This document shows, piece after piece, positions 14,145 to 30,842 of a DNA stretch of 33,569 bases (position 1 is its first letter; every line of letters begins with the position of its first letter). The DNA is from Verrucomicrobiota bacterium (GTDB taxonomy: Bacteria > Verrucomicrobiota > Verrucomicrobiia > Limisphaerales > Fontisphaeraceae), in the NCBI GenBank assembly GCA_037139415.1, contig JBAXGN010000075.1, positions 1 to 33,569 on the forward strand, written 5' to 3'. The position numbers and the translations under genes were made by a program. The notes below the pieces were generated by a model that worked only from the letters and a program-made list of their open reading frames with translations, was not told where the DNA came from and made no database searches.

Positions 14145-14371
14145 AATCCATCCTAAAATGCCAATTTTGTGCCAAAAAGGCACAGGAACGTGCAAAATTA
14201 GCGAAAAAGCTGGGGTTCTGAACCCCAACGCTGGGGTTCCGAGCTCCGACTTCGGAGCAAAAAGGTCCGAAACCGGGGCTCAGAGCCTCGAAGCTGGAGC
14301 AAAAAGCCTCGACTTCGGACCTCGGAACTCCGAATTCGGAGCTAAAAGGTCCGGCTTCGGAGTTCGGAGCT
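14145..14371. repeat. 21-bp-period palindromic array (array A) with flanking core
   Basis: Between the convergent GH2 and argB genes, at least eight consecutive 21-bp units run from 14204 to 14371 with no indel. Units 14246, 14330 and 14351 show the consensus best, beginning CCGACTTCGGAGCAAAAA, CCGAATTCGGAGCTAAAA and CCGGCTTCGGAG. Many units contain inverted repeats, for example CTCCGAATTCGGAG (14328-14341) and GGGGTTCTGAACCCC. The unit is a multiple of three, and one plus-strand frame would read heptapeptides close to SDFGAKR. A core of about 35 bp at 14145-14181 (CCATC, AAAATG, AATTTTG, CCAAAAAGG in order) lies on the left and resembles the edge of the array near 30.7 kb. The array may also act as a bidirectional terminator. 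Confidence 0.85.
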
Positions 14372-14433
14372 GGGGAAAATTCCTTCCTGCGGTTGCAGTT
14401 CGGAGGCGGAGCGGGCCGGTTGAGGCGGCGGAT

Positions 14434-15309
14434 CTACAGCACCACTTCGGTACCGATGCCTTTGTCGGTGAAGATTTCGAGCATCACGGCATGGGGCACC
14501 CGGCCATCTACGAAGGAGACTTTGTCCACGCCGGACTTGATGGCCGCCACGGCGCTGTCCACCTTGGGGATCATGCCCTTGTCCACGATGCCCTTTTCCT
14601 TGAGCTTCGGCACTTCGCTGATGCGCAGGTGAGGGATGACGGTCGCGGGGTCTTTGGGATCACGCATGAGACCGGGCACGTCGCTCATGAAAACCAAGCG
14701 CTTGGCCTTGAGCGCGATGGCCGCCATGGCCGCCGCCACGTCCGCGTTGCAGTTGTAAATCTTCCCATCCACGCCGCGCGCAGTGGGGCTGATGACGGGG
14801 GTGATGCCTTTGGCGATGCATTCGAGCAGCGGCGCGGTGTTGACGCCGGTGACTTCGCCGACGAAGCCGATGTCCAGCTTTTCGCCCTTGGGACCTTTGA
14901 GAAACATCTTTTTGCAGGTGAAGATGTCCGGGCCGGCAAAGCCCTTGGCCTGGCCGCCGAGCGTCTGGATGGTGCGCACGACTTCCGGGTTGATCTCGCG
15001 CGAGAGAACCTGGTCCACAATGTTGACCGTGGCTTCATCCGTGACCCGCTGCCCCTGGATGAACGTGGCCTGCAAGCCCGCCTTCTCCATGGCGCGGGTG
15101 ATCGCCTTGCCGCCGCCGTGCACCACCACCGGGTCAATGCCCACGGCTTCGAGAAACACGATGTCGCGCGCCACGCCGTTGCGCACTTCCTGGTCCGGCG
15201 AATCCATGAAACTGCCGCCGTATTTCACCACGAACGTGGCACGGTCATACTTCTGAATGTACGGCAGCGCTTCCAACAGCGTATGCGCTTTGAGAATCAA
15301 TTCCTTCAT
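14434..15309 (-). CDS. argB: Acetylglutamate kinase
   Basis: ArgB phosphorylates N-acetyl-L-glutamate with ATP, the second step of arginine biosynthesis, in the cytoplasm. The 291-residue length is usual. The amino-acid kinase fold is marked by FVVKYGGSFMDS (K29, phosphate binding), PVVVHGGGKAIT (about 60-71, substrate and ATP binding), GQRVTDEATV, a MAAIALKAKRLVFMSDVPGL segment late in the protein, and a C-terminal FVDGRVPHAVMLEIF. The N-terminal helix of about 20 residues resembles that of arginine-sensitive ArgB proteins, so feedback inhibition by arginine is possible. The gene follows argJ on the same strand after 36 bp, so the two are probably co-transcribed. Array A lies just beyond its stop codon. 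Confidence 0.96.
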   Translation of the reverse strand: MKELILKAHTLLEALPYIQKYDRATFVVKYGGSFMDSPDQEVRNGVARDIVFLEAVGIDPVVVHGGGKAITRAMEKAGLQATFIQGQRVTDEATVNIVDQVLSREINPEVVRTIQTLGGQAKGFAGPDIFTCKKMFLKGPKGEKLDIGFVGEVTGVNTAPLLECIAKGITPVISPTARGVDGKIYNCNADVAAAMAAIALKAKRLVFMSDVPGLMRDPKDPATVIPHLRISEVPKLKEKGIVDKGMIPKVDSAVAAIKSGVDKVSFVDGRVPHAVMLEIFTDKGIGTEVVL

Positions 15310-15345
15310 AATCGTCGCGAGTAAGATTGAAATGCCGCGTGCGCC

Positions 15346-16674
15346 TCAGCCGCCGAGCGCGGAGGGGTTGCTCACGTCGCCTTTGTTGAAGTCCACGTAT
15401 TCCTCCGTGAGGTCGCACGTGTACATCACTGCGCTGGCGGAGCCGAGATTCAACTGGATGTGCAACTCAAACTCGCGCCCGGCCACGGCGGCGCACAAGG
15501 TCTTGAACGGCGTACTCGTCGGCTGCCCGCGCTTGAGTGAATAGATCAACTTGCGCGTCCCCGGCGCGCTGTAGGCGATGTCCACCTTGTTCTCGACCAC
15601 CTTTGCGGCGGAATAACCCAACGCGTCAATGATGCGGCCCCAGTTCGGGTCGCCGCCAAACCAACTGGTCTTGACCAGCGCACTGTTGGCGACTGCCCGT
15701 GCGGCGGCATCCGCGTCGGTAAATGATTTTGCGCCGTTGACGCGGACCGTGATGAAGCGGGTGACGCCTTCCCCGTCGCGCACAATCTTCTTGGCGAGTT
15801 CGAGGCAGACATGGTTGAGCGCCGCCTGGAAGATCGCGAGGTCTTTGGAGTTGCCGGCCTTCAGCACCGGGTTCTCCGCGAGCCCGTTGGCCAGCACCAC
15901 CACGGTGTCGTTGGTGCTCATGTCGCCGTCCACCGTGATGCGGTTGAAACTGTGGGACACTGCCTCCTGCAACGCGGCTTTCAAGGCCTTGCCCTCGATG
16001 GCGGCATCGGTGGTGACAAAGCAAAGCATCGTGGCGTGGAGCGGCTGCGACGCGGGACGCGCGCCGGTGGGGCTCATGCCCGGCTGGATCATGCCGGCGC
16101 CTTTGCACATGCCGCCGATGCGGACGGTCTTGCCGCCCAGCTTGAACTCCACGGCGATCTGCTTGGGCTTGGTGTCGCTGGTCATGATGGCCTCGGCAGC
16201 CTCATCGGCGTGCTCCGGCTGCGGCCCGAGGATTTGGGCTGCGGCGAGGATGCCTTGCTTCACATTGGCCATCGGCATGGTGACGCCAATGCGCCCGGTA
16301 GAAGCCACCAGCACTTGTTCTACTGGCAGGTGAAATTGGTTGGCCGCAATCTGCGCCATCAGGCGGGCATCCTTGAGACCTTGCGCTCCGGTGCAGGCGT
16401 TGGCGTTGCCGGAGTTGACCACGATGGCCTGGGCCGTGCCACCCCGGAGATGCTCGACGCACACCTTGACGGGCGCGGCGCACACCTGGTTGGTGGTGAA
16501 CATGCCGGCGGCGGTGGCTGGCACTTCCGAGACGATCAGCGCCAGATCGCGCTTCTTGCCTTTGTTGGACCCCTTGCCGGTGCCCAACCGTTTGATGTCG
16601 CAAAATACGCCTGACGCCAAAAAGCCGCGCGGAGCAGTCACCGCGCCGGAGATTTCTTTGAATCCTTTGCTCAT
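15346..16674 (-). CDS. argJ: Bifunctional glutamate N-acetyltransferase / ornithine acetyltransferase
   Basis: ArgJ transfers acetyl from N-acetylornithine to glutamate, giving the cyclic arginine pathway; many members also use acetyl-CoA. The 442-residue precursor self-cleaves before a nucleophilic threonine into alpha and beta chains. Family marks include AIVVNSGNANACTG (about 83-96), ASTGRIGVTMPM, GGMCKGAGMIQP (187-198), then ATMLCFVTTDA with the predicted nucleophile T215, DGDMSTNDTV and NWGRIIDALGY. Thirteen residues (SPTGARPASQPLH, 201-213) lie between GMIQPGM and ATML, where the enzymes I know run MxPxMATML directly. An AGAGG upstream of ATG 16674 can serve as ribosome binding site. 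It leads the argJ-argB pair. Confidence 0.95.
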   Translation of the reverse strand: MSKGFKEISGAVTAPRGFLASGVFCDIKRLGTGKGSNKGKKRDLALIVSEVPATAAGMFTTNQVCAAPVKVCVEHLRGGTAQAIVVNSGNANACTGAQGLKDARLMAQIAANQFHLPVEQVLVASTGRIGVTMPMANVKQGILAAAQILGPQPEHADEAAEAIMTSDTKPKQIAVEFKLGGKTVRIGGMCKGAGMIQPGMSPTGARPASQPLHATMLCFVTTDAAIEGKALKAALQEAVSHSFNRITVDGDMSTNDTVVVLANGLAENPVLKAGNSKDLAIFQAALNHVCLELAKKIVRDGEGVTRFITVRVNGAKSFTDADAAARAVANSALVKTSWFGGDPNWGRIIDALGYSAAKVVENKVDIAYSAPGTRKLIYSLKRGQPTSTPFKTLCAAVAGREFELHIQLNLGSASAVMYTCDLTEEYVDFNKGDVSNPSALGG

Positions 16675-16786
16675 ATACGTGCCTCTTTGTTAAGGTACAC
16701 AAGCATGAAACGCAAAGCAAAAGATGAGCCACATGAATTTTTCATAAAACCGACATTAAGGAAAGGCGTTCCCCCTCTATTACTCC

Positions 16787-17737
16787 TTATGGTATGATCC
16801 GCAGTGGTTTATCCAACTCCAGAACTTTGGTGACCTGGTTAGTCGGTGATACCACAACCGTGATCACCACTGAAGTGCTCCCGATGTGCTCGCAACGAAG
16901 ACTGTATTTGGTTTCGCCGTTTGCATCAGTCATCGCTTTTTGTTCGCCGATATTGAAACTCACCTCATTAATCGTCACTGATTTCCTGCCATTAATCCTT
17001 TGCAGGCACAATTCCATGGATTGCGGCGGCATGATGTTGCAGGTATTACTCGCTTGTGCAAAGATAGGTGCTGGCAGGTTGGTGACCATGAGTCCAGTGC
17101 TTATGTCGAACATATAAGTTCCCCCAGTGTTGGTGATGCCAACTTTTATATTCAAGGTTCCCGCAGGTGGTGGATTAAAGCCGTCAGCCATCTCTACGCT
17201 CAGAAGGTTGCGTGTGTCATCAAATTGCCACGACTCAAACCAATATCGCCGACGCTCACCCAGTTGCAAAATATCCACGTTGGTTATCAGCTCACTTATC
17301 TGGTACTGCTTGACCTCTCTGCCTTTTCGGTAAAACACCAGAGCCAATGTCCAACGATCATCATCAACAAAAGGAAAGGATCCTTGTGCTGCAATACATT
17401 CACCATCCCGTGACACTTCAATATTTTGTGCATACCAAGCAACAGTCCACAACGGATTTGTTGCTCCATTATTAAAATAGAGGCCGGATCGGGGGTATCG
17501 CGCATATAACTGGTCATTTGTTTTGCGATACTTATCCGGGACCAGCATGACGAAAAGGTATTTTCCATCCTTGGTGGTTTTACAATATGACGAAGGCCAT
17601 GCGGTTCTCGCATTCAGAAAGTTGAGGCTCATGGTAAAGGCAACAAACCATGCAACCCAGCCCCCATGTCTTCCATCCGTCTTAATCTGACATGTTACGG
17701 CTGCCAAAATTTGTTTTAGCCACGAGCGCATAATCAC
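16787..17737 (-). CDS. Hypothetical exported protein
   Basis: This 316-residue protein is not assigned to a family. A hydrophobic stretch (about 25-42, GGWVAWFVAFTMSLNFLNA) can act as an uncleaved anchor or as a signal peptide after an unusually long basic N-region; a start at Met3 is also possible. The rest is beta-rich and soluble. It includes a kinetic-propeller-like opening with SSYCKTTKDGKYLFVMLVPD, a DDDRWTLALVFYRKG strand, a mid segment AGTLNIKVGITNTGGTYMFD and a C-terminal sandwich ending VTKVLELDKPLRIIP. GC is somewhat lower than in argJ and sppA. It sits alone between these housekeeping genes, with 112 bp to argJ. I cannot propose a function. Confidence 0.6.
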   Translation of the reverse strand: MIMRSWLKQILAAVTCQIKTDGRHGGWVAWFVAFTMSLNFLNARTAWPSSYCKTTKDGKYLFVMLVPDKYRKTNDQLYARYPRSGLYFNNGATNPLWTVAWYAQNIEVSRDGECIAAQGSFPFVDDDRWTLALVFYRKGREVKQYQISELITNVDILQLGERRRYWFESWQFDDTRNLLSVEMADGFNPPPAGTLNIKVGITNTGGTYMFDISTGLMVTNLPAPIFAQASNTCNIMPPQSMELCLQRINGRKSVTINEVSFNIGEQKAMTDANGETKYSLRCEHIGSTSVVITVVVSPTNQVTKVLELDKPLRIIP

Positions 17738-17816
17738 TACACTTTGGTTTCAAAGCAAAGCCAGAACCAATACAACGAACCCTCGCTGCTCATGCCTTTT
17801 GCGCCTTGGCGCCAAA

Positions 17817-19004
17817 TCAAGGCAGCAGCACCGGAGATAGAAAATACATCCGCCCGGTTTTTATCTTCGATATCTCCACGCCAAGATCAATCTTGATGGC
17901 GGGCGCCTCGGTTTTCCCAAGCAGACGCATGACATTCAGAAAATCAAACGGCACTTGGTATTGGATGAGCTTGGCGTCTTTGCATCCAGCCAGGGTTTCG
18001 GCCCGCTTGACCGCGGTTTCAAAGGTGCCCAACTCGTCCACGAACCCAAGTTCCTTCGCTTGAATGCCCGAAAGGATCCGACCATCCGCATAGGTCGCCC
18101 ATTCGCTGTTCAATTTGCCATCCCGCCCCTTGGCGACGACTCCTTTGAACCGGTCATAGACCTCCTTGATCAAACTTTGCACCATGGCCTGTTCTTCCAC
18201 GCGATCCTTGCGCTCCGCCTCGGTCAGGTTGGCGAGATCCTTGTCGCCGCTGAGCATGTCCTTGAACCGTCCGCTCTTATAAACCTCGGGTGCGATGCCC
18301 ACCTTGTTCATCAGCCCGCGATAATTATAGCCGTGCATGATGACACCGATGCTGCCCGTGATGGTCAGCTCGTGCGCCACAATCCATTTGCAGGGCGCGG
18401 AGACATAATAGCCGCCGGAAGCCGCGAGACTGCCCATGCTGGCTATCACCGGTTTGGAGCTTTCTTTTTGGAACTTCTGAATTTCCTTGGCAATCTCATC
18501 CGAAGGCAGCACTTCGCCGCCAGGAGAATCCACGCGCAAGATCACCGCTTTGACATGCTTGTCTTCCGCCGCCAGCTTCAATTGCTTCTTAATCAGGCGC
18601 GCCATGGAAACCCCGCTGCCATCCGCCGGACCGCTGTGAATGATCCCCTCCAGGCTGATCAACGCAATCTTGTCAGTCCCATCGTTATCCTCAACCACGG
18701 TTTCGATGAAATGCGGTTCGCTATCCTGCGACATCCCGGACGCGCCGCGAAACGCGCCGGTGATAAATGAACCCACGTTCAGCAGCATGATGCCGCCCAC
18801 TACGCACAGCAGCACGATGGCCAGGGTGCGCCAGCCGCGTCCGGTTGTTTTCCTGGGTGCGGCCAGCGGCGGCGTCAGCAAAGGTGGGGTCGGCAGACGC
18901 GGAGGGGGCGATGGCGGCAGGATTGGGGCGGCGGGCAAAACCGGGGGCTGTGCCGGGGGAACCGGCGGCGTCACTGGTGCATCATTGGGCGGTACGTTTT
19001 CCAT
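17817..19004 (-). CDS. sppA: Signal peptide peptidase SppA (S49 family)
   Basis: SppA is a membrane-bound serine/lysine-dyad protease that degrades cleaved signal peptides. The 395-residue protein starts with a 50-residue cytoplasmic tail made largely of prolines, then one membrane helix (about 59-83, LAIVLLCVVGGIMLLNVGSF). The catalytic domain has VILRVDSPGGEVLPSDEI (about 154-171), the nucleophile S196 in GSLAASGGYYVS, ITGSIGVI and the general base K248 in YKSGRFKDML. This is the short, single-domain form typical of Gram-positive and many other bacteria rather than the 67-kDa E. coli form. The proline-rich tail is atypical, and the membrane gene at 19579 has a similar one. The gene is divergent from the DUF2127 gene, with about 100 bp of shared upstream DNA. 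Confidence 0.94.
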   Translation of the reverse strand: MENVPPNDAPVTPPVPPAQPPVLPAAPILPPSPPPRLPTPPLLTPPLAAPRKTTGRGWRTLAIVLLCVVGGIMLLNVGSFITGAFRGASGMSQDSEPHFIETVVEDNDGTDKIALISLEGIIHSGPADGSGVSMARLIKKQLKLAAEDKHVKAVILRVDSPGGEVLPSDEIAKEIQKFQKESSKPVIASMGSLAASGGYYVSAPCKWIVAHELTITGSIGVIMHGYNYRGLMNKVGIAPEVYKSGRFKDMLSGDKDLANLTEAERKDRVEEQAMVQSLIKEVYDRFKGVVAKGRDGKLNSEWATYADGRILSGIQAKELGFVDELGTFETAVKRAETLAGCKDAKLIQYQVPFDFLNVMRLLGKTEAPAIKIDLGVEISKIKTGRMYFLSPVLLP

Positions 19005-19105
19005 AATGCGTTGAACCTAGTGGATATTCCCGTTTCCGGCAAGCGTGATTCCAACCGCAGTGAAATCGCTTGCAATTAATCGCCTGACAACGCAAGGCTT
19101 TGCAC

Positions 19106-19582
19106 ATGTCTGAAGCCACCTGGCATCATCGTTTCGGAATGGCGGCGATCGCCGTGTTCAAGCTGATCAAGGGCATTCTGCTCTTGGTGACGGCGGTTGG
19201 CCTGCTCAAGCTGGTGCATGCCGACCTGAGTGCTTTGGTCGAACATTGGGTCACGCTGCTGCGCATGGACCCGGATAATGAACGCATTCATCATGTCATG
19301 GAAATGATCACCAATATCAGTCCCAAACAACTCAAGGCCGCCAGTGCCGGGTCCTTCTTTTATGCCGCCTTGCTGTTGACGGAAGGGATTGGGCTCTGGC
19401 TGGAAAAACGTTGGGCCGAGTATTTAACCGTGCTGGCGACCTCCACATTTATTCCGTTGGAACTTTATGAAATTTGGGTTCACCTGACCGGGATCAAGTT
19501 GGCGGTATTGATCCTGAATGTGGTGATTGTGCTCTACCTGATACGCATGTTGCGGCGGGATAGGGGAGCTAAAACGGTGTGA
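19106..19582 (+). CDS. DUF2127 family membrane protein
   Basis: ATG 19106 gives 158 residues; a TTG two codons earlier is also in frame. The pattern matches DUF2127 integral membrane proteins: a first helix with FKLIKGILLLVTAVGLLKL (about 15-33), a polar loop with a helical HHVMEMI segment, then three helices (about 75-150), including LTEGIGLWLEKRWAEYLTV and IPLELYEIW. The C-terminus is basic. Function is unknown; the family is found in many bacteria as single genes. Its stop codon overlaps the GTG start of the next gene by four bases (GTGA), so the two are coupled and likely encode partners in the membrane. Confidence 0.8.
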   Translation: MSEATWHHRFGMAAIAVFKLIKGILLLVTAVGLLKLVHADLSALVEHWVTLLRMDPDNERIHHVMEMITNISPKQLKAASAGSFFYAALLLTEGIGLWLEKRWAEYLTVLATSTFIPLELYEIWVHLTGIKLAVLILNVVIVLYLIRMLRRDRGAKTV

Positions 19583-20025
19583 GTAGCGAGCTAACAAAAC
19601 AACCGCCGCCGCTCCCGGCAACTCCGCCGGTGGCGGTACCGCCCGTCATCGCGCCGCACGCAACCGTGGAAGTCATGCCGCCCGGTGAACCGGAGCGCAA
19701 GACCTGGCTGCACCCATTGAGTGGCGGGGCGATTCTATTGTTCGACAACCTTTTTTTCGGCGGGGAATTGCTCACGTTTGAGATGGGGCTGGTTCCGCTT
19801 TGCCTGCTCGCATTCCTCATTACCACCATCCTGGTATTCGTCATCCAGAGACAACTGCGCGGTGATACCACCAGTGCCTGCGCCAAAAAGGCGTTATTTG
19901 GCGGCGTGATTGCGGGTTTTCCCACCAGCCTGAGCGGCACGGTAGTAGGGGGCGCGGTGCTGATGCTCTCCGGCTTGAACAGTTGGAAGGAATGGCTGGC
20001 CCGCAAGCGGCTCAAACGTATTTAA
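19579..20025 (+). CDS. Small membrane protein with proline-rich N-terminus
   Basis: This 148-residue protein starts at GTG 19579, which overlaps the DUF2127 stop as GTGA, strong support for this start. Residues about 8-36 are rich in Pro, Val and Ala (KQPPPLPATPPVAVPP), then there is a WLHPLSGG segment. Three hydrophobic segments follow: ILLFDNLFFGGELLTF, LVPLCLLAFLITTILVFVI (about 72-90) and GGVIAGFPTSLSGTVVGGAVLML. The C-terminus is basic (RKRLKRI). No family is recognised. The tail resembles the proline-rich N-terminus of the SppA encoded divergently upstream, so both may use the same cytoplasmic binding partner; that is inference. Confidence 0.65.
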   Translation: MSSELTKQPPPLPATPPVAVPPVIAPHATVEVMPPGEPERKTWLHPLSGGAILLFDNLFFGGELLTFEMGLVPLCLLAFLITTILVFVIQRQLRGDTTSACAKKALFGGVIAGFPTSLSGTVVGGAVLMLSGLNSWKEWLARKRLKRI

Positions 20026-20169
20026 TGAACGCCCAACAAGCCGACCCTTGGCGCTTTTTCGCGTGATAATTTGGAGGATGTTTAGGATGTGCCGTTTTTG
20101 GGAGGCAGCATTCGCAGCTTCACAACCCCATTGAGCGCGTTGAATTCACGGTCTTTATGCACCAGTAAT

Positions 20170-20286
20170 CCGAAGACCGAAACTGAAAACATGGCCCGCC
20201 AATGACACCAATGGACGCGAACAACGAACAGATTCGAAGCCCGAAACCCGAAATCCGAAAGAAAACCGAAGGCCGAAGGCCGAATC
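20170..20286. repeat. Short CCGAAnn heptamer repeat clusters
   Basis: Two clusters with a 7-bp period occupy the gap between the membrane-protein gene and hisG. Cluster 1 (20170-20190) has CCGAAGA, CCGAAAC, TGAAAAC. Cluster 2 (20234-20286) has TCGAAGC, CCGAAAC, CCGAAAT, CCGAAAG, a 4-nt break, CCGAAGG twice and CCGAATC. The rest of the 514-bp gap (20026-20539) holds no credible gene. A stretch at 20308-20345 contains degenerate AAAAATG-type motifs. Minus-strand frames across this gap only read the repeat. Confidence 0.75.
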
Positions 20287-20455
20287 CAGAGCAGGAAACT
20301 TTTGCAGAAAAATGAACCGGCATAAAAAATGGGAGGCCGAACATGACAAGAAAATAGGAGCTTGGAGCAAGGGGATAGAATGGCCGCTACGTCAAAGATG
20401 GGTGGTGAGGGAAAAGGCCTGAGCGGCATTTCATTTTTGCGCTGCATTTATTCTG

Positions 20456-20483
20456 TTGCACCGCCGCAAGGATGGGCTAATCT
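20456..20483 (+). promoter_or_regulatory. Candidate hisG promoter
   Basis: TTGCAC (20456-20461) and TAATCT (20478-20483) are separated by 16 bp, and the hisG ATG lies 56 bp downstream. Both hexamers are near the sigma70 consensus, and this is the best such pair in the gap. No attenuator or leader peptide for histidine is visible. Confidence 0.45.
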
Positions 20484-20539
20484 GCTGCCCGCTTTGCGGG
20501 GACGCTCGACGGTTCTCCGGCGACAAAGCGAATATTTGA

Positions 20540-21436
20540 ATGAAGACGAAACTAGCGGAACCACAACCGAAGCTTAAGTTTGGATTGCCCAAAGGCAGTC
20601 TGCAAGACGCGACCATTGAGAAGATGGCCAAGGCGGGCTGGAACGTCACGCTCAGCAGCCGCTCGTATATCCCTTATGTGGATGATGCCGAGATGGAGAT
20701 TCGGCTGATTCGTGCCCAGGAAATCAGCCGATATGTAGATCATGGCTATCTGGATTGCGGGATCACCGGTTATGACTGGATTGTCGAGAATGGCAGCGAT
20801 GTGCATGAAGTAGGCGAATTTTTGTTTTCCAAAGCCACCCGGCAGGCGGCGCGTTGGGTGTTGTGCGTGCCGGAAACCTCCCCCATTCAATCGGTGAAGG
20901 ACTTGGAAGGCAAGCGGATTGCCACAGAAGTGGTCCATATCACCAAGAAATACCTCAAAAAGCATGGGGTCAAAGCCGAGGTCGAATTTTCCTGGGGAGC
21001 CACGGAGGTTAAAGCGCATGAGTTGGTAGACGCCATTGTGGAAATCACCGAAACCGGATCTTCACTGCGGGCTAACAAGTTGCGGATTGTGGATACCCTG
21101 CTCACCTCCACCCCGCGTCTGATTGCCAATCATAAATCCTGGCAGGACCCATGGAAACGCAAAAAGATCGAAACCCTGGCGTTGATGTTGCGGGGTGCTT
21201 TGGCGGCGGAGGCCAAGGTGGGTCTGAAAATGAACGTGGCGCGGAAGAATCTCGACCGTTTGCTGACCAACCTGCCGGCTTTGCGCAATCCAACCATCTC
21301 GCAATTAAGCCTTGAAGGTTGGGTCGCAGTGGAAACCATCATTGATGAAGCGGTGGTGCGGGAATTAATTCCCCAGCTTAAGGCTCATGGCGCGGAGGGG
21401 ATTATCGAGTACCCGCTCAACAAGGTGGTTTATTGA
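20540..21436 (+). CDS. hisG: ATP phosphoribosyltransferase, long form
   Basis: HisG joins ATP and PRPP, the first and regulated step of histidine synthesis. The 298-residue length and the C-terminal domain identify the long (homohexameric, HisZ-independent) form. Recognisable parts are [18 protein letters not shown] (about 12-29), [12 protein letters not shown] (about 72-83), [14 protein letters not shown] and a [22 protein letters not shown]-binding segment (about 162-179). The regulatory C-terminal domain (about 215-298) ends with [14 protein letters not shown]. The gene is not clustered with other his genes here. It is followed after 79 bp by the small COX24-like ribosomal gene, perhaps on the same transcript. 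There is no clear Shine-Dalgarno before ATG 20540. Confidence 0.95.
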
Positions 21437-21515
21437 TTTTTATTACCTGCATTTCAGGGCTGGACACGCGCCACAGATTGCTATACACTCTTAACACGTA
21501 ACTGAAACTAAAACT

Positions 21516-21617
21516 ATGGGATCATTGAAGAAACGCCGTAAGGCCAAAATTAATAAACATAAACGACGCAAGAAGCTTCGCACCAATCGCCATAAAAAGC
21601 GCACCTGGCAGAAGTAA
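21516..21617 (+). CDS. AURKAIP1/COX24-domain small ribosomal protein (bS22/mS38-like)
   Basis: A 33-residue, extremely basic protein is encoded here. It starts [20 protein letters not shown] and ends HKKRTWQK, with 20 Lys/Arg residues in total. This is the AURKAIP1/COX24 signature: KKRRxKxxKHKxRKxxRxxR. The same short family includes mycobacterial bS22 and mitochondrial mS38, both bound to the small ribosomal subunit near the decoding region. Its place on the ribosome is inferred from those relatives. It is too short for normal gene finders. A strong hairpin begins 40 bp after the stop. Confidence 0.85.
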
Positions 21618-21657
21618 GTGATTTCTGCGGTTGCGAAACCGTGTAATTCATTCTTAA

Positions 21658-21697
21658 ACACCGCTCTCGCTTGTGAAAAGCGGGGCGGTGTGCTTTT
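21658..21697 (+). terminator. Terminator-like hairpin at the start of the TPR lipoprotein gene
   Basis: A stem starts with ACACCGC (21658-21664) and closes with GCGGTGT (21685-21691). It extends inward through two G-T pairs and, after a one-base bulge, CGCTT paired with AAGCG around a short GTGA loop. It is followed by GCTTTTA, which runs into the ATG at 21698. It can end the hisG/COX24 transcript. Because it abuts the start codon, it could also control translation of the lipoprotein gene. Confidence 0.6.
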
Positions 21698-23425: not shown

Positions 23426-23808
23426 TGGCGTACCAATTTTCCAGACATCATACGCTTGCCGAGGCGCGCGCTTTGCTGCCGCGCCTGCGTGAATGGCTGG
23501 TTCAATTGCAAGTGCTGCAAAAGCGGCTGGATTCTTTTGAACGCCGGCTGGCTGGACGCCTGGAGGGCGGCGCGGATGCTGGAGGGGGTATGGTGAACGA
23601 TTGGGCGCGGACCATGGCCGACTTTGCCGGGGTATTTCAAGAGTTCCGTTCCCGGGAAATTCAGATCAAGGATTTGAACCGTGGTCTGCTGGATATTCCG
23701 TCGTTGCGCAACGACGTTGAGGTGTTTCTCTGCTGGGAACTGGGCGAGGAGGAAATTGAGTTCTGGCATGAAATTCACGCCGGGTACGCCGGACGCGAGC
23801 GGCTGTAA
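23425..23808 (+). CDS. DUF2203 family protein
   Basis: This 127-residue cytoplasmic protein starts at GTG 23425, which shares one base with the TAG of the TPR gene (TAGTG); the coupling supports this start. It has the DUF2203 pattern: an N-terminal FSRHHTLAEARALLPRL (about 5-21), a helical middle, and a C-terminal REIQIKDLNRGLLDIPSL with VEVFLCWELGEEEIEFWHEI (about 95-114), ending HAGYAGRERL. The family is widely distributed but uncharacterised. The conserved EVFLCW and FWH residues suggest a binding site. Co-translation with a TPR lipoprotein may only reflect compact organisation. Confidence 0.85.
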   Translation: MAYQFSRHHTLAEARALLPRLREWLVQLQVLQKRLDSFERRLAGRLEGGADAGGGMVNDWARTMADFAGVFQEFRSREIQIKDLNRGLLDIPSLRNDVEVFLCWELGEEEIEFWHEIHAGYAGRERL

Positions 23809-23884
23809 AAAAATCTCATTTCACTTGCGTCAAAGGCAGGCTAAAGTATTACACTGACGCGCCTTTTAAAGGTGGCACCCAAAC

Positions 23885-25348
23885 ATGAGTGATTTATTGA
23901 AGCAACCGATCTGGCAGGGACAGGACTTGGGGAAAGCAATTCCCAGTTCACCGCACGCCATTTCCGTGGCGCTGCCACGATGGCAGGATGTGGTGGGATA
24001 CGAGGAGAAACGACCGGAAGTCATTTCCCGGTTGGCAACCGGTTATCCCCGGTTTGTGATTCATCCCAAGGTGCGTTCGCTGGCGAGTACGCTAAGTTCG
24101 GAAAAGAACTGTCTGCCATTTCCTTCCTTGCATAGTGCCGAACAATGCGCCGCGTTTGTCCGGCGCATCAGCGGTCAACCCACGCAAATTGTGGGGCTGG
24201 GCGAAGTGCATGGGGTGGTGACTTCCGCGACGGGTGCTGCCGCCTTGCAGGCGTTTTGGCAACATACCGGGTTGATCGTCTCCAGCCGACAGGCGGAGGC
24301 GGTGATGGAAGGACGGGCGCAGCCGCCCGACACGAACGCCATCCGGGCATCCTTGCGGCGGCAGTTGGCCGACTTTTATGATTGCCGCCCGGACGATGTG
24401 TTCTTGACGGCCACCGGCATGGCGGCGCAGTTTGCCGCGCTACGCAGTGTGAACCTGTGGCGTCCGAACCGGCCCACGGTGCAACTGGGTTTCCCGTATG
24501 TGGATACGTTGAAATTGCAACAGAAGCTGGGTTATGGCGGCATCTTGTTGCATGACTTGGAACGGATTGAGGCGGATTTGCATCACCTGATGGAGCAGCA
24601 AACCCTGGCCGGATGCTTCTGCGAGATTCCCGGCAACCCGCTGCTGGGTTCCGCGGACGTGCGGAAGGTCTCCCCGCTGTTGCGCCAGCATGGCGTGCCC
24701 TTGATTGCGGATGATGTCGTGGCCACGCCGTTCAATGTCAATCTGTTGCCTTATGCCGATTTGATTGCCACGAGCCTCACCAAGTATATCGCGGGCACGG
24801 GGGATGTCATGGGCGGGGCGCTGATCTGCAATCCGCGCTCGCCCTATTATCAAACGCTGAAGTCGTTTGCGCAAATGCAGCATGAGGAGTTGCTTTGGGG
24901 CGAAGAAGCGGCGGTGCTGGATGCCCAGGCCCGGACTTTTCCCGAACGGATGCAGCAGCATAACCGCAACGGTTTGTACCTGGCGGAGCGACTGCGCCAG
25001 CATCCATGCGTCGAGCGCGTGTGGTACCCCAAATGGGAATTTTCCGGAGCGTATGAAGCGGTGCGACGTCCCGAGGGCGGGTATGGTTCGCTCATCACCT
25101 TTTTGCCGAAGCAGGCGGAACTCAACGCGCCCAAAATCTATGATGCCATGGCGGTGTGCAAAGGCCCCAGCTTGGGCACCGTCTTCTCGCTGGCGTGTCC
25201 CTTCACCCTGCTGGCGCATTACAGCGAGTTGGAGTGGGCGGAGGCGTGTGGCGTCTCGCGCTATCTGATCCGCATTTCCGTGGGTTTGGAAGAACCAGAG
25301 GAACTCTGGCAGCGGGTGAAGACGGCGCTGGAAACGACGAACGCTTGA
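23885..25348 (+). CDS. Cys/Met metabolism PLP enzyme, fungal-type cystathionine gamma-synthase-like
   Basis: This 487-residue member of the fold-I PLP family (cystathionine gamma-synthase and relatives) has its internal-aldimine lysine predicted at K300 in DLIATSLTKYIAGTGDV. The substrate and cofactor part includes FCEIPGNPLLGSADV (about 239-253), the aspartate of LIADDVVATPFN and a C-terminal SVGLEEPEELWQRV. Unlike the roughly 390-residue bacterial MetB, it carries an N-terminal extension with HAISVALPRWQDVVGYEE and TGYPRFVIHPKV (about 24-65). I associate that segment with fungal Str2-type enzymes. It probably forms cystathionine from cysteine and an activated homoserine; the acyl donor cannot be read. 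No SAM riboswitch is seen upstream. A weak promoter (TTGCGT, 16 bp, TATTAC) lies at 23825-23852. Confidence 0.8.
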   Translation: MSDLLKQPIWQGQDLGKAIPSSPHAISVALPRWQDVVGYEEKRPEVISRLATGYPRFVIHPKVRSLASTLSSEKNCLPFPSLHSAEQCAAFVRRISGQPTQIVGLGEVHGVVTSATGAAALQAFWQHTGLIVSSRQAEAVMEGRAQPPDTNAIRASLRRQLADFYDCRPDDVFLTATGMAAQFAALRSVNLWRPNRPTVQLGFPYVDTLKLQQKLGYGGILLHDLERIEADLHHLMEQQTLAGCFCEIPGNPLLGSADVRKVSPLLRQHGVPLIADDVVATPFNVNLLPYADLIATSLTKYIAGTGDVMGGALICNPRSPYYQTLKSFAQMQHEELLWGEEAAVLDAQARTFPERMQQHNRNGLYLAERLRQHPCVERVWYPKWEFSGAYEAVRRPEGGYGSLITFLPKQAELNAPKIYDAMAVCKGPSLGTVFSLACPFTLLAHYSELEWAEACGVSRYLIRISVGLEEPEELWQRVKTALETTNA

Positions 25349-25349
25349 A

Positions 25350-25361
25350 CCGAAATTTCGG
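25350..25361. terminator. CCGAAATTTCGG palindrome between convergent genes
   Basis: A perfect 12-bp palindrome fills most of the 16-bp gap between the stop codons of the PLP-enzyme gene and the pseudouridine synthase gene. It may help end both convergent transcripts. It lacks a T-tract, and its short stem makes it weak. Confidence 0.25.
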
Positions 25362-25364
25362 GCC

Positions 25365-26168
25365 TTATCGGGTCGCGTAACGCCGCAGGAACTTTAATGC
25401 CACGTTCAGATCCTTGGGCCAGGGGGCGGTGATGACCACCGGTGCCTGCGTTACCGGGTGGTTTAGTTCCAAGCGTTCCGCATGCAGGGCGACGGTGGAG
25501 AGCAGCGGGCGCTCAACTTTGTCCCCCTTCAGCCGGTATTCCTCTTTCAACTGCGAGAGATTTAACGGGTGGCCGCCATACACTTTATCGCCGCAAATCG
25601 GCACCCCGCAGCATTGCAGGTGAACCCGGATCTGGTGTGTGCGCCCCGTCAGGGGGCGGCAGCGCACCAGGGTCCAGCCACGAAAAACTTCCACCGTTTC
25701 AAATTCGGTGATGGATTTCTTCCCTTGCTTGCGGTCTATCCGCATCACGCCCACCTTGGCGGGATGCATGGCCAGCGCGGCATCCACCGTCCAAGTGGCA
25801 GTAACGGGTTGCCCGTGGACCAAGGCTACGTAGGTTTTCACCGGTTTCAAGGATCCGAACAAGTTGGCGAGTTCCACCAGCACGGGCTTGCTTTTGGCCA
25901 TTAACATCACCCCGCTGGTCTCGAAGTCCAGCCGGTGCGCGTTCATCAGATACGTCAGCCCGCGCTCGCGCGCCCACGGTTTCCCGGCGGTAATGCCGTC
26001 ATGCAGCAGGCGCATGAGGTTGGGGCGCAGGGGATCATAACGATCCGGGGAACTGAGCAGGCAGGCCGGCTTGCATAAGGCTAACAAGTCCGCATCCTCG
26101 TAAAGCACCGGGATTTCCCAGAATTCCTTGGTGGCAGGCGACGAAAGTTTGACGGGCGGATAGTTCAT
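25365..26168 (-). CDS. RluA-family pseudouridine synthase
   Basis: This 267-residue cytoplasmic enzyme isomerises uridine to pseudouridine in rRNA or tRNA. The catalytic aspartate is D81 in the motif AHRLDFETSGVMLMAKS (about 77-93). Other family parts are VLYEDADLLALCKPA (about 21-35) and KTYVALVHG. The RxxTGRTHQIRVHL (about 170-183) segment is followed by GDKVYGG. There is no S4 domain, so it resembles the RluA/TruC subgroup; the modified position cannot be assigned. It runs convergent to the PLP-enzyme gene and lies downstream of the PpiD/SurA-like gene on the same strand, but a terminator separates the two. Confidence 0.92.
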   Translation of the reverse strand: MNYPPVKLSSPATKEFWEIPVLYEDADLLALCKPACLLSSPDRYDPLRPNLMRLLHDGITAGKPWARERGLTYLMNAHRLDFETSGVMLMAKSKPVLVELANLFGSLKPVKTYVALVHGQPVTATWTVDAALAMHPAKVGVMRIDRKQGKKSITEFETVEVFRGWTLVRCRPLTGRTHQIRVHLQCCGVPICGDKVYGGHPLNLSQLKEEYRLKGDKVERPLLSTVALHAERLELNHPVTQAPVVITAPWPKDLNVALKFLRRYATR

Positions 26169-26225
26169 AGTTTTGCAGGGTTAAAGGATTCCGCTGCTCC
26201 ACCGTTCCACGCTCTGCGCGTGGAT

Positions 26226-26266
26226 ATAAAAAATGGGCAGAAGATCTGGAGAATCATTCTGCCCAT
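26226..26266 (-). terminator. Intrinsic terminator of the PpiD/SurA-like gene
   Basis: On the minus strand a perfect 10-bp stem (ATGGGCAGAA/TTCTGCCCAT, at 26233-26242 and 26257-26266) with a 14-nt loop is followed by six T residues and TAT. It starts 21 bp after the stop codon. This is a clear rho-independent terminator. Confidence 0.85.
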
Positions 26267-26286
26267 AAGTTGGTTGACCGTCTCGC

Positions 26287-27999
26287 TTAGCGACGGCGCT
26301 GCGGTTGTTGTTCGTCCTTGCGTGGTTCCGGCAGGTCTGACTGCATGCCCTGGCGCTGACGTCCCAGCCATTCGTTGGCCACTTCAAACTGCCGGCTTTG
26401 ACGCAGGCCGGCCGAGAACTTGGGCAGTTCGGCCATCAATTTGGTTTCGTCCACGAGGATGCGTTCGCGCAGGTAAAGGATGATCCCGCCGTCGTACGTG
26501 GGGAGAAATACGCTGGCCGTCTTGGGCGTGAGGCTGAACGCGATGCGTTTGATGTCATTCAGATTCAACGCTTGTGGCAGCAGTTCGACGGAGCGCGTGC
26601 TGCGGGAGAAGGCGGGCAGGATCAACGGCTTTTGCTTTCCGGACAGGCAGATTTCCGTGAACGTCTTGTGTTGGCCCAGGCCGTTGGTCAGTGTGTTGTA
26701 GAAAATCCGGCCATAGGAGCGGGCTTGCGCCAGCGCTTCGGTTTGCTGGTAGTCTTTGGTGACCTTGGCAAGCACGGCCTCAAAGGGCGGCACTTCGCTT
26801 GGGAATTTCGCCTTGAGTGCGATCAGGAAAACGCCGTCGTCACCCATGATGGGGTTCAGGTTCACCGGTTCCTCCGGGGCGAGTGCAAAAGCCACGTCGG
26901 TGAACTTGGCCAGGACCTTCATGTCGGCGGGGCCGTCTTCGCGATCAAACGGGGCCGAGGTTTTTAACGTCAATTTGAATGGATCCGCCGCCGCCATTTG
27001 CGCCAAGTCCTCAATTTTCAGTTTGGCGCCACTGTCCGCTTTCTCGGAAAGCTTGGTGGCCAGGTCGTAGGCCTTTTTGCGCGCGGCATTCATCGCCTGC
27101 TCGTCCTTGATTTCCTTGCGGATGCGGACTTTGGCCACGTCGGGATCCAGCGCCTGGCCATTCTCGCGGTAGAAGTTCGTGCCGCGCTTCATGTAGATGG
27201 ATTCCACGATGGCGTCTTTGTTGGTCAGCTTGTTGAACTGTTCTTCGGCTTCCACCATGAAGTTGGTGACCTCAAACTTCACATAGGCCAGTTGCACGCG
27301 GTCGTTCAGGCGGTATTCGGCCATGTGGTTGGTGTAGAATTCCTTGAGCTTGTCGGGCGCGGCCATGGGTACCTTCTCCAGGTAATTGGTCGCGGCGAAA
27401 TGCACGAGTTCGGTGACCACTTCCTCGTTCTCGCGGCGGTACAGGGTCTTGGCTTCCTCGGGCGGGATGAGGCGTCCGGCGGTGCCAGCCACGGCGACGA
27501 GGTGGAGGATGCGGACTTCGTTGCGGAGAAACCGTTCGTAATCCGTCTTATTCAGGCCGTTGGGTTTGAGGATGACCCGTTCGAATTCATCCAAGGCCGC
27601 CTTGGGGTTCATCCCGCGGGCACCGAGGGCCTCCAAGTGGGATTCCGCCAACTCCACCAGTGTTTCCGGGTTGGCATGGATATTCATTTCCCGCACCTTC
27701 TCCAGCATGAACAGGCGGGAGTTGGCTTCGTTATAATCATCCCAGCCAAATTGGCGCGCGGTCTCACTGCGATCCGGCCATTGGCCAAAGCGGAAGAAGA
27801 ACCGCAGTTTGGCCTCATGCATCACGTCCCGATATTCGTCATAAGTGACGTCCCGGTTGTTTATCTTCAGCCCTTTCTCTTTCCCCCCGTTTCGCGAAAA
27901 ATAGCGATCGGGTGAAAAGAATATCACAAAGCTGGGGATCACCACTGCGATGACGGCCAGCCAAATCCACTTCTGATGTTGTCTAAATCCTGCAAACAT
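26287..27999 (-). CDS. PpiD/SurA-like membrane-anchored periplasmic chaperone
   Basis: This 570-residue protein has an N-terminal anchor (about 10-30, WIWLAVIAVVIPSFVIFFSP). A SurA_N-type helical domain follows, starting KINNRDVTYDEYRDVMHEA (about 45-63) and containing the NGLNKTDYERFLRNEVRI segment. A middle region (about 200-330) is rich in charged helices. Residues about 330-420 are in the place of a parvulin PPIase domain (LAPEEPVNLNPIMGDDGVFLIALK), but conservation looks low, so isomerase activity is uncertain. The C-terminal helix is basic and Gln/Arg-rich. PpiD and SurA assist folding of secreted and outer-membrane proteins, fitting a cell that exports many proteins. It ends with a strong terminator and lies about 150 bp from the beta-helix gene on the same strand. 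Confidence 0.8.
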   Translation of the reverse strand: MFAGFRQHQKWIWLAVIAVVIPSFVIFFSPDRYFSRNGGKEKGLKINNRDVTYDEYRDVMHEAKLRFFFRFGQWPDRSETARQFGWDDYNEANSRLFMLEKVREMNIHANPETLVELAESHLEALGARGMNPKAALDEFERVILKPNGLNKTDYERFLRNEVRILHLVAVAGTAGRLIPPEEAKTLYRRENEEVVTELVHFAATNYLEKVPMAAPDKLKEFYTNHMAEYRLNDRVQLAYVKFEVTNFMVEAEEQFNKLTNKDAIVESIYMKRGTNFYRENGQALDPDVAKVRIRKEIKDEQAMNAARKKAYDLATKLSEKADSGAKLKIEDLAQMAAADPFKLTLKTSAPFDREDGPADMKVLAKFTDVAFALAPEEPVNLNPIMGDDGVFLIALKAKFPSEVPPFEAVLAKVTKDYQQTEALAQARSYGRIFYNTLTNGLGQHKTFTEICLSGKQKPLILPAFSRSTRSVELLPQALNLNDIKRIAFSLTPKTASVFLPTYDGGIILYLRERILVDETKLMAELPKFSAGLRQSRQFEVANEWLGRQRQGMQSDLPEPRKDEQQPQRRR

Positions 28000-28152
28000 A
28001 ATCGTTTTTAAATATGGAGCGCGAAACGTAGCGCACTGTTTTCCCCCTTGTCGAGAGGTTTTTCATATTAAATGATGTGCGCGGCTGGCGGCGGCCAAGG
28101 CAAACACTGTGGCATAGGTCCTTTTGACCGCTGAAACATGGGTGTTTTTGCG

Positions 28153-30273
28153 TTAATTCCCGTGCAGGGGCAGCACGATGGCGTTGGGGTTGGGCAGCGC
28201 GTGTTTCAGGTCCGAGGGCAGTTCGGGGAGTTCCCGTTTGCCGGTCTGGTTGAAGTCGCCGCGCTGGAAGGCCGGAATGTCCAGATTGGCTCCGCACGGT
28301 TGCTGGCTGGGTCCGATCGCCAGGGCAGGGGAGGTCGGCGTTGGGCGGAGGTCCAGGGTCGTCGTCGCGGCCTGTTTCCAATTCCAGATCAGCGCGTCCC
28401 GGAATGGCGCGGCGGGCAGTGGCGGCTCAAATTGCACGACGTTCTCATCGGCTTTGGTGACTCGGCGCAGGAGGCCATCCCCATTGATTTCAATCTGGTC
28501 GCCGATCTCGAACTTAGCCGGGGCTCGCAGGGTCAGACGAGAGCGGGTGTTGGCGTCATCCCAGCGCACGGCGGCCTGAAAGAGTGGGGCGGCGCGGAAT
28601 TGTGGGTTGGCGCGCCGGGAATGCGCCTCGCGCCCGAGCGCGGCGGCTTCCTCGGGGGTGAAGAGGGAACGCCATTTGGGTTTGGTGACTAGATAGATGG
28701 GCAGTTTGGCATCCTGCTGGTAAAGCAGGTTTTCCTGGCTCGTCAAAGTCTCGGCCAGCGTCAGCGGGTTATTCCACACGATGGAACGGTTGAGCCGATA
28801 TTGATGGCCGGTGAAGGAAAACGCCCCATACCCGCCCAGGCCGATGGTGGATTGTTCAATCGTCCAATCATGCGAGTTGCCATGGCCGAAGATGACGGCG
28901 ATGGCGGCGGTGCCCACGATGATGCTGTTGCGGATGGTGCTCCCGTCAATCTCCTCCGTCATGATGCCTTGGCCGCCCCAAAGCAGCACGTTATCCTCGA
29001 CGACCAGCCGGTGTACGCCCCGATACGTTTGCAGGTTGTCCGGATGCCCCAGCAACAGGTGGTGATGGATGTAATTGCGGCGGACGGTGATGTCCTGCGA
29101 TTCCGGTTCCCCGTCGGGTTTGCCGCTGACGTTCCCGGCAATATCCACGCCATCCACCAGGTTCAACGCAATCTCATTCTGCTGGACCAGGACGTTCTTG
29201 CTCGAAATCACCCCCACGCCGTTCGCGTTCGCCACCACAATGTTATTCTGCAACTGTATCTCCTCGCAACGCCGCACCGAAATCCCGTTCCGCTGGTTGT
29301 TATGCACGATGCAGCCTTGAATGTTCACGTGCGATGCGCCCGTCACCTCCACGCCCACCCCGCCCGAGCCGCACACCTCGAGCCCCGCCACGGTGATTTG
29401 CGTTGCCGGGTGGCCTTCCCGCCCGCTCACCAGCAGCAACCGCTGGGCTGCGCGCCGATACTGGGTCCGCTCCAAGTCCGCCACGGCCGCTGGCCGAAAG
29501 TACACGCGCACCCGCGGCGCGTCCAACTCCACAAACGCCCATTGCCCCACCTGCGTGATCAACCGGGGATGATTGACCAATTGGTAACGACCTCCTTTGC
29601 CCTGCAACGTGGCGCACACGCGGGCATCCCCGAGCTTCACCACGCCGCCCGCCGCCTCCAATCCCTTGACCCCGACCGTCGAGAAATAATTCCCCCGCGC
29701 CACATACACAAACGCCATCAGCGATTGCGGGCGGGCGACCACCTCCGCCGGCCAACCGGTGCCCGGCCCCGCGCCGTCCTTGAACGTCGCGGCTCCGGCA
29801 TCCGGCTCCTTCACCGAGCGCATGGGCTGCTCAGCTCCGGGCCAGCGCGAGACCGGCTGCGGCGTCAGCCCCACATACAAATCGGCAATGGGCCCCTCGA
29901 TCGTGGCGCTGTAAACCTCTCCCGCCTCCCGTTGCCAGCCTTGGATGGGGGTGAACCCGGACAACACCACCCGTTCCCCCGGCGCGGCGCGCAGGGCGAT
30001 GGGTTTCTCCGGCGTGCCCGCCCCCTGGAGCGTCACCGTTTCCGCGTACGTGCCTTGGCGGACCAGAATCGTATCCCCCGGCAGCACCGACTTGGCCGCC
30101 GCGCTGATGGTGGCAAACGGTTGGGCGGGCGAGCCCACCCCACCGGCCGCCGCGCCGGCCTGCACCCACAACTCCCTGGCACTGGCGGTAACAACCAGCC
30201 CGCCGCACAACAGCGCGCCGACCCCGGCCATGCGCCAAGCCGTCTCATAGCAAATCAATCCAATGAGCTTCAT
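28153..30273 (-). CDS. Secreted right-handed parallel beta-helix protein
   Basis: ATG 30273 gives 706 residues with a signal peptide (MAGVGALLCGGLVVTASA region); the open frame reaches 30366, but the added residues are basic and lack signal character. After the peptide, LWVQAGAAAGGVGSPAQPFATI and GDTILVRQGTYAETV (split over two strands, about 50-80) are typical of the DUF1565/NosD-like start of pectate-lyase-fold proteins. Coils with repeated NGVGV, NxIxLN and HNNQRNGISVRR elements follow (about 290-450). The C-terminal 200 residues form a distinct beta domain with FRDALIWNWKQA. The fold is used by polysaccharide lyases and by binding proteins; no calcium- or catalytic-residue set could be assigned. 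It is divergent from the ThuA-like gene. Confidence 0.85.
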   Translation of the reverse strand: MKLIGLICYETAWRMAGVGALLCGGLVVTASARELWVQAGAAAGGVGSPAQPFATISAAAKSVLPGDTILVRQGTYAETVTLQGAGTPEKPIALRAAPGERVVLSGFTPIQGWQREAGEVYSATIEGPIADLYVGLTPQPVSRWPGAEQPMRSVKEPDAGAATFKDGAGPGTGWPAEVVARPQSLMAFVYVARGNYFSTVGVKGLEAAGGVVKLGDARVCATLQGKGGRYQLVNHPRLITQVGQWAFVELDAPRVRVYFRPAAVADLERTQYRRAAQRLLLVSGREGHPATQITVAGLEVCGSGGVGVEVTGASHVNIQGCIVHNNQRNGISVRRCEEIQLQNNIVVANANGVGVISSKNVLVQQNEIALNLVDGVDIAGNVSGKPDGEPESQDITVRRNYIHHHLLLGHPDNLQTYRGVHRLVVEDNVLLWGGQGIMTEEIDGSTIRNSIIVGTAAIAVIFGHGNSHDWTIEQSTIGLGGYGAFSFTGHQYRLNRSIVWNNPLTLAETLTSQENLLYQQDAKLPIYLVTKPKWRSLFTPEEAAALGREAHSRRANPQFRAAPLFQAAVRWDDANTRSRLTLRAPAKFEIGDQIEINGDGLLRRVTKADENVVQFEPPLPAAPFRDALIWNWKQAATTTLDLRPTPTSPALAIGPSQQPCGANLDIPAFQRGDFNQTGKRELPELPSDLKHALPNPNAIVLPLHGN

Positions 30274-30550
30274 GGCGGCGAGCCTACGCCGCAACCCGCA
30301 GCCTTGTCGAGCAAACAGTGACTGCCGGGCGGCCGCCGCGCACCAAAACTTTCTGACAAAAAACACTTGTCAGTCCTAAGCTGAATGGGTGCCTTCCGTG
30401 AAAATTCACTGGCAATCGAGCATGAATGGCATGTTTCCAGGTAGGATATTCGATGCAGTTTCCGCCCATACACCCGGCGGGACTACGGAAGCGCTTTCCA
30501 GCGTGAAGGGCACCCTTTTGTCATCCCCGCCCCAGCCAGGCCAAAAGCGT

Positions 30551-30739
30551 CCCCAGCGCGGCTGGGTGGACCCCCAGAACCGCTGGGGGGATCCCCAGCG
30601 CGGCTGGGGGGATCCCCAGAACCGCTGGGTGAACCCCCAGCGCGGCTGGGGGGATCCCCAGGACCGCTGGGGGGCCCCCCAGCACGGCTGGGGGGATCCC
30701 CAGGACCGCTGGGGGGCCCTCCAGCGGTGCCAGAAACCA
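30551..30739. repeat. 21-bp tandem palindrome array (array B), alternating A/B units
   Basis: Nine units begin exactly 21 bp apart: 30551, 30572, 30593, 30614, 30635, 30656, 30677, 30698 and a decayed one at 30719. Odd units read CCCCAGCGCGGCTGGGG (7-bp stem); even units read CCCCAGAACCGCTGGGG or CCCCAGGACCGCTGGGG (6-bp stem). Four-base spacers are mostly GGAT. The unit pair is therefore a 42-bp repeat copied four times. Spacers allow alternative pairing (CTGGGG with CCCCAG of the next unit). One plus-strand frame reads heptapeptides such as PQRGWGD and PQNRWGD. The right edge runs into a core at 30734-30780 (CCATCAAAA twice, AAAATG, GATTTCGCGCAAAAAAG) like the one flanking array A. The rest of 30274-30842 has no credible gene and holds the divergent promoters. 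Confidence 0.95.
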
Positions 30740-30842
30740 TCAAAAAACCATCAAAATGAGCGATTTCGCGCAAAAAAGCCCAAATTTGACCATTTTTGAA
30801 TCTTTGCTTGCCCATCCCAGTAGTTTTGGCCATATTCCGCTC

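Follow-up and report, generated by a model that had tools for sequence, protein, structure and literature searches.

The window, by which is meant the whole stretch of 33,569 nucleotides that was analysed, is contig C75 of a 7.9-Mb Verrucomicrobiota genome in 378 contigs. Two tandem arrays with a 21-bp period lie between its genes. Array A (14216–14361, no strand assigned) contains about seven imperfect palindromic 21-bp units between convergent genes, each unit pairing a palindrome of about 14 bp such as CTCCGACTTCGGAG with a 7-bp spacer such as CAAAAAG. Array B (30543–30724, likewise without a strand) has about 8.7 units of 21 bp between divergent genes, and here CCCCAGCGCGGCTGGGG and its alternate together give a 42-bp higher order. 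Both are real arrays of period 21, as a preliminary description of this DNA had stated. Identity at lag 21 is 0.59 in array A and 0.75 in array B, which reaches 0.88 at lag 42, and Tandem Repeats Finder reports period 21 at 14242–14362 and periods 21 and 42 at 30551–30726. To the left of array A is a long plus-strand open reading frame (11107–14064, with a gene finder start at 11242) that ends 152 bp before the array and is presumably glycoside hydrolase-like; to the right is a minus-strand, argB-like gene (14434–15309) that is conserved in relatives and that we take to encode N-acetylglutamate kinase. The genes around array B are transcribed away from it, one at 28153–30273 on the minus strand and one, presumably ThuA-like, at 30843–31640 on the plus strand; the start of the latter at 30843 was chosen by the analyst, the gene finder placing it at 30756.

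A terminator-like hairpin and its T tail (14209–14229, minus strand, a consensus match only) make up the left edge of array A. It lies downstream of the argB-like gene and on the same strand, so that part of array A may end the transcript of this gene. A scan for promoters and terminators found two sites resembling each by array A and no site of either kind by array B. The two terminator-like sites within 14050–14450 compare with 0.7 expected in shuffled sequence, all of these being consensus matches only. The two promoter-like matches, one per strand, fall at 14131–14164, where none is expected in shuffles (again consensus matches only), and overlap the A-side segment discussed in the next paragraph. 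An Rfam scan of the window returned nothing but a tRNA. The first 52 or so nucleotides of the window match the ends of two other contigs at 98% (L032 4–55 and L123 1–51) and are either an AT-rich end repeat or an assembly artefact.

The preliminary description had joined the two arrays through a proposed core of about 35 bp, located on the plus strand at 14145–14181 beside array A and at 30746–30780 beside array B. The alignment of these segments is present and lies above shuffled sequence, but neither segment recurs as a core. Its local score is 15; of 3000 dinucleotide-shuffled pairs 0.2% score as high, as do 17 of 22356 windows and 43 of 8205 AT-rich windows, some of which overlap array A itself. 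Extended across both flanks, the alignment scores 18, where the 99th percentile is 17 for shuffled pairs and about 20 for random window pairs, among which self-overlap is possible. These statistics are weak because the alignment had been chosen by eye and both flanks are rich in A and T. When the pattern CRATTTYGYGCMAAAAAG is sought in the 7.9 Mb with up to two mismatches, there are eight matches, made up of the two defining copies in the window and six others, all with two mismatches; the reversed-pattern control gives three. None of the six (0/6) has a 21-bp array beside it, and this core was rejected as a recurring element. The B-side segment had also been likened to the units of array A, and the two agree at 13 of 18 bases, counted by eye. 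What arrays A and B have in common is their period and design, not this core.

To place the two arrays among others, 80 stretches of 20 kb were surveyed together with the window, 1.63 Mb in all or about 20% of the genome; the window and the stretch on contig C40, which was picked for its match to array A, are not a random sample, and 79 stretches were unselected for arrays. Arrays were detected by identity at lags P, 2P and 3P, and those outside strong genes, as called by a simple codon-based gene finder, were counted. Period 21 gave 20 intergenic arrays (16 in the 79 unselected stretches, three in the window and one in the C40 stretch), and the 16 intergenic arrays at period 42 are largely the same ones. 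The other multiples of seven (14, 28, 35, 49 and 56) gave one to four intergenic arrays each, while every tested period between 10 and 60 that is not a multiple of seven gave none or one, and periods 18, 24 and 54 occur almost exclusively inside genes. Five of the 20 arrays lie between convergent genes, eight between tandem and five between divergent genes, and two are at contig ends; among background gaps of at least 250 bp, 32 are convergent, 138 tandem and 71 divergent, and no clear preference of orientation around the 20 arrays, nor any that suggests a function, was found. A cruder, ORF-based split places 11 arrays in and 11 outside long open reading frames, since 21-bp arrays stay open easily.

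For the comparisons below a set of 25 arrays was used, 15 from the survey and 10 linked to the recurring core described further on. Dropped from the 20 were the hit at 18864 in the window (which is probably N-terminal coding sequence of a gene), L016 and L142 (both weak), L147 (a heptamer array) and L130 1–166 (contig end); the core-linked C164, the short C118 and the contig-end C22 also stand outside the set. Arrays range from about 3 to 19 units, with a mean identity of 0.62, 0.64 and 0.62 at lags 21, 42 and 63. Identity at lag 7 averages 0.21, about the level of other lags, array A being an exception at 0.42; a seven-base sub-unit was rejected as the basis of the period, there being no lag-7 signal on average. 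The period is the same in arrays with unrelated flanks, and the unit sequences are mostly unrelated, only 14 of 300 array pairs matching by blastn at E 0.01. Array A resembles the array on contig C40 at 67% over 167 bp. Several 21-bp arrays lie at or near contig ends (L123 1–251, L130 1–120, the end of L221 and the start of L218); the assembly therefore probably breaks at such arrays, and their true number may be underestimated.

Palindromes were judged against a null in which the 21 columns of the unit are permuted alike in all units. The two-centre score exceeds z = 3 in 8 of 25 arrays and the one-centre score exceeds z = 2 in 13 of 26, one of which is from another genus, with a Stouffer z of 10.6, arrays of the same family being non-independent. 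Taken singly, about half of the arrays are not significantly palindromic; arrays A and B, with z of 4.7 and 4.1, are among the clearest. Against the same null, the folding energy (MFE) falls below z = −2 in 15 of 25 arrays on one strand and 14 of 25 on the other, with values of −5.4 and −4.7 for array A and of −2.9 and −2.7 for array B. Folded as RNA, A and B also outdo 200 of 200 dinucleotide shuffles, as any tandem palindrome must. Read from the consensus units, the palindromic arms are conserved as sequence, and centres and spacers are variable. Covariation between the arms within arrays shows no overall excess (2030 paired cells against 2010.5 expected, z 1.2), with the exception of C49 (z 4.9). 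Because both strands are equally strong and there is no overall covariation, the data favour a palindrome at the DNA level over an RNA hairpin, and RNA hairpins under compensatory selection were rejected on the same two grounds.

A core that does recur was reached through the motif AAACCATCMAAAAACGTC, noticed beside several arrays and matching the genome eight times against once in a control. It led to a dispersed core of about 75 bp with the consensus GTTTACTTTAACGCCCGCCATTAAAGCCGGGAAnCCCCGnTTTTTGACGTTTTTGGCGGTTTTTTGCGTAAGTGCCT. An alignment of 15 copies gave the sequence-only model R1, which has 22 matches at E < 1e-3 in the genome; one is inverted inside the C132 element, leaving 21 sites. 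In the orientation of the core, a 21-bp array is found on the right at 16 of the 21 sites (C39, C2, C132b, C21, C110, C118a, C90, C36, C158, C164, C256, C93, C64, C20, C154 and, at a contig end, C22) and on the left at 0 of 21, where none reaches a score of 0.52. The preliminary description had arrays on either side of a core; for the recurring core every array found is on one side. The 16 consist of 15 sites with a score of at least 0.52 and C22, with a lag-21 identity of 1.0; the cut, which C164 (0.52) and C118a (0.53) pass marginally, was chosen after the scores had been seen. About 300 bp separate core and array at C93 and C154, and at C101, C132a, C118b, C55 and C87 (0.35 to 0.44) the array is absent or too weak. 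The fraction is also biased by C21, C36 and C20, which were known arrays beforehand (without them it is 13 of 18), and by the discovery of the core through a motif seen beside arrays. As background, 10 of 242 intergenic windows have an array, and these windows themselves include arrays. There are 16 weaker R1 matches in all, and of four separate ones examined (E 0.03 to 0.16) none has an array (0/4). In a scoring-matrix scan, 12 of the 15 surveyed arrays have no recognisable core, so that common descent of all arrays is unproven; the scan is imperfect, having passed over cores that lie 270–320 bp away from C93 and C154 as trimmed. Often a second dispersed block (CATGACCTCCGGAAAGCCGCCCAATAAACCCAACTGCACC followed by a GGGGTGCC hairpin) stands upstream of the core, as at L040, L180, L183, L216, L217, L218 and L222, and parts of this block are also matched at places that have no core.

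Loci made of a core and a 21-bp array that differ in unit number thus recur much as the preliminary description had supposed, though not with the core that it named, and its two arrays fare differently as members. Array A has no core-like flank by R1 or by the scoring-matrix scan, and near 14145–14181 R1 yields only 2.0 bits in the wrong orientation. Beside array B a degenerate second half of the core (CATTTTGATGGTTTTTTGATGGTTTCTG) lies on the minus strand at 30731–30762, overlapping in part the segment 30746–30780 on the other strand; read in the direction of the core, it has array B to its right. It is the best of 31 R1 matches in the window at E up to 10 (8.3 bits, E 0.056, R1 E-values being rough) and abuts the array on the expected side. 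Its PSSM score of 10.7 falls between the 95th and 99th percentiles of 348 intergenic controls; in the same scan the other half of the core scores 6.9 by array B, above the 99th percentile, on the wrong side and strand. This suggestive match makes it probable that array B belongs, in degenerate form, to the core family.

The units beside the core fall into about six families without mutual matches at blastn E 0.01, where C20 has the second core half only and C64 joins C154 weakly; several mutually unrelated unit sequences thus go with one recurring core. Between families, identity in successive 21-bp steps after the anchor GTAAGT runs 0.63, 0.42 and 0.36 (shuffled 0.34 to 0.36), and from the third step on it stays at 0.35 to 0.39, against a shuffled level of 0.31 to 0.36 overall (12 loci and 50 pairs; a thirteenth locus, L217, was omitted for want of an anchor). 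Sequence is common through the core and is nearly lost within about 40 bp past it while the period stays. Two copies with both flanks alike, on contigs C22 and C10 (L041 and L134), show length differences of 84 bp and of a 210-bp block, and several other pairs differ by 21 or 42 bp; among 10 aligned pairs many gaps are not multiples of 21 (e.g. 14, 22, 29 and 36). Similarity between units falls with distance in some arrays (from 0.54 to 0.20 in C110 and from 0.69 to 0.37 in C49), and other arrays show no strong decay. At L041 5700–6400 and L134 1300–2160, array and flanks are alike, including the start of the following coding region, so that here the duplication took in both the array and its neighbourhood.

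In relatives, 734 kb in 40 stretches contained one comparable array that was recognised, at 509–739 of L257 in another genus, made of GTGA-N6-TCAC palindromes and 7-bp spacers with a 21-bp period. A crude ORF rule classes it inside an open frame; other period-21 matches in relatives look coding. With one such array in another genus, the class is enriched in the present genome and not unique to it. A scan of 28 argB loci in relatives (L053–L080) showed no convincing 21-bp array beside argB, its one weak match (L077) looking coding, as does a weak match in L096 from a different search. Under stricter filters, R1 has partial matches (E 0.003 to 0.01) in three of 57 other genomes and none in the remaining 54. 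Two exact core patterns had no match in the genome_contigs collection, which may omit this genome and its near kin, the core had none in plasmids, and array B with its flanks had none in phages. No description of such 21-bp arrays was found in the open-access literature that was searched.

On this evidence it is somewhat more probable than its opposite (roughly 0.55) that arrays A and B are members of a class of non-coding arrays of 21-bp imperfect palindromes that are satellite-like or REP/BIME-like. Array A would join this wider class by its period, its palindromes and its partner array on contig C40. An element composed of core and array would have been copied around the genome, after which each array would evolve by local duplication and deletion of units, through slippage or unequal exchange, together with mutation; such local turnover would homogenise units within an array and replace them between arrays. 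Twenty-one base pairs are two helical turns, and sites so spaced lie on one helix face. The palindrome and the two-turn spacing could be kept by selection for a dimeric DNA-binding protein on that face or, alternatively, hairpin formation itself could promote slippage and in this way keep both. A mobile or slippage-driven element had been suggested beforehand; slippage-like gain and loss of units is supported, and for mobility of the core the evidence is its dispersal.

It is possible, if rather doubtful, that these are plain minisatellites, that is, functionless chance tandem duplications expanded by slippage, whose common period reflects descent from one array. Gain and loss of units by 21 bp, the decay of similarity between neighbours in some arrays (C110, C49) and the lack of a preferred gene context agree with this; however, palindromes beyond those of column-permuted units and the one-sidedness of the core need an extra reason, and the similar palindrome-plus-spacer array of L257 in another genus speaks against it as well. 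Even as ordinary minisatellites, most sampled intergenic arrays would be of one 21-bp design, often palindromic, and such a genome offers a clear test of protein-binding and hairpin-slippage explanations of extragenic palindromes.

In its strong form, the seeding model of the preliminary description amounts to a dedicated enzyme with a two-turn ruler that recognises the core and repeatedly duplicates the adjacent 21 bp. We consider this unlikely. Wherever a core site has an array, the array is on the same side, across about six mutually non-matching unit families, and the period is the same in arrays with unrelated flanks, both as such an enzyme would have it; yet 12 of the 15 surveyed arrays are without a recognisable core, and no candidate enzyme for array formation was found among the eight Y1_Tnp genes of the genome that were checked. 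The preliminary description had pointed to a REP-type transposase, and none of the eight Y1_Tnp loci (0/8) has a core or a 21-bp array in its flanks, which extend up to 1.5 kb and less at contig ends. Amplification driven by a RAYT was therefore rejected. Two of the eight genes, in L235 and L236, lie among several copies of a different palindromic repeat family (AACACCAAAGGTGTT, CAACTCCAACGGAGTTG), likely forming with it a RAYT/REP pair of this genome, and no similarity of that repeat to the 21-bp core is detectable. One of the eight loci has a 41-bp array (L236 2565–2854, lag-41 identity 0.90), at least about 700 bp from the transposase. That the neighbouring DNA is amplified in 21-bp steps on one side only and irrespective of its sequence, under the direction of a conserved non-coding core, leaving unrelated palindromic arrays beside near-identical cores, is likewise improbable. 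Should seeding by the core prove real, the arrays would amount to a bacterial equivalent of satellite DNA that has its length ruler built in, and would offer a tractable way to study how tandem arrays start and why one period persists.

Operator arrays, each bound by a dimeric regulator of its own, are very unlikely. The arms keep their sequence while centres and spacers vary, and a 21-bp spacing is known to put sites on one helix face, both of which would suit operators, but many unrelated unit sequences would need equally many regulators, and the neighbouring genes, read by their first residues only, show no common theme.

A coding function as heptapeptide repeats or peptide precursors, based on the open frame that the preliminary description took for a property of the repeat family, is scarcely credible. 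Open frames are mostly expected from 21 = 3 × 7, since a frame that is open in one unit tends to persist, and such frames occur in 20 of the 25 arrays, permuted unit columns predicting 19.4, and are missing from the other five. Arrays A and C40 do read as degenerate heptads in one frame, there are 57 open frames in total where 40 would be expected, and 18 of the 20 arrays that have an open frame exceed their permuted mean in best codon score; nevertheless this score does not exceed 0.19 per codon in the arrays, compared with 0.31 and 0.39 for the genes beside array A, and palindromes, which open frames on both strands together, inflate both the summed frames and a best-of-several codon score. 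With neither open frames beyond expectation nor gene-like codon bias, the heptapeptide reading was rejected, which is a caution against annotating open heptapeptide frames in 21-bp arrays as genes.

Several known systems resemble these arrays in part. REP and BIME sequences are extragenic, palindromic, dispersed, clustered and tandemly reiterated, as set out in PMC3733652. The 21-bp arrays are likewise extragenic, palindromic (about half of them individually), dispersed, clustered and in tandem, but the sequence of the palindrome varies by array, with 14 of 300 pairs matching and hence no single high-copy family, the period is constant, a subset has a one-sided core, and no RAYT was found beside them (0/8). 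The same source gives REP super-families a GTAG or CGTC tag at one end (PMC3733652). In the linear consensus units of the 25 arrays, read by eye and exclusive of the joints between units, GTAG occurs in none (0/25) and CGTC or its complement in two (C41 and C20).

Bacterial minisatellites or VNTRs are tandem units gained and lost whole. The present arrays also gain and lose units, and related copies within one genome differ in number, but here palindromes are common among the units, and a single period prevails in sequences that are unrelated. CRISPR arrays have a leader-like conserved block on one side, as the 21-bp arrays have their core; here, in contrast, a constant repeat with unique spacers is missing, the conserved positions being spread over the unit rather than forming one block, and the repeated unit is not conserved between arrays. 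Eukaryotic satellite DNA evolves in concert inside each array and turns over from one array to another. Homogeneity within and turnover between arrays are seen here as well, in arrays that are, by contrast, bacterial and as short as about 3 to 19 units. In Beggiatoaceae, abundant intergenic direct repeats of the heptamer TAACTGA are described in PMC4679880. The 21-bp arrays differ in having no lag-7 signal on average (0.21, with array A excepted at 0.42). Similar in kind to the Beggiatoaceae repeats is the GTGATCA heptamer array of this genome, a pure heptamer array at L147 11164–11350 (GTAATCA / GTTATCA / GTGATCA), which has further matches in L117, L120, L026 and others.
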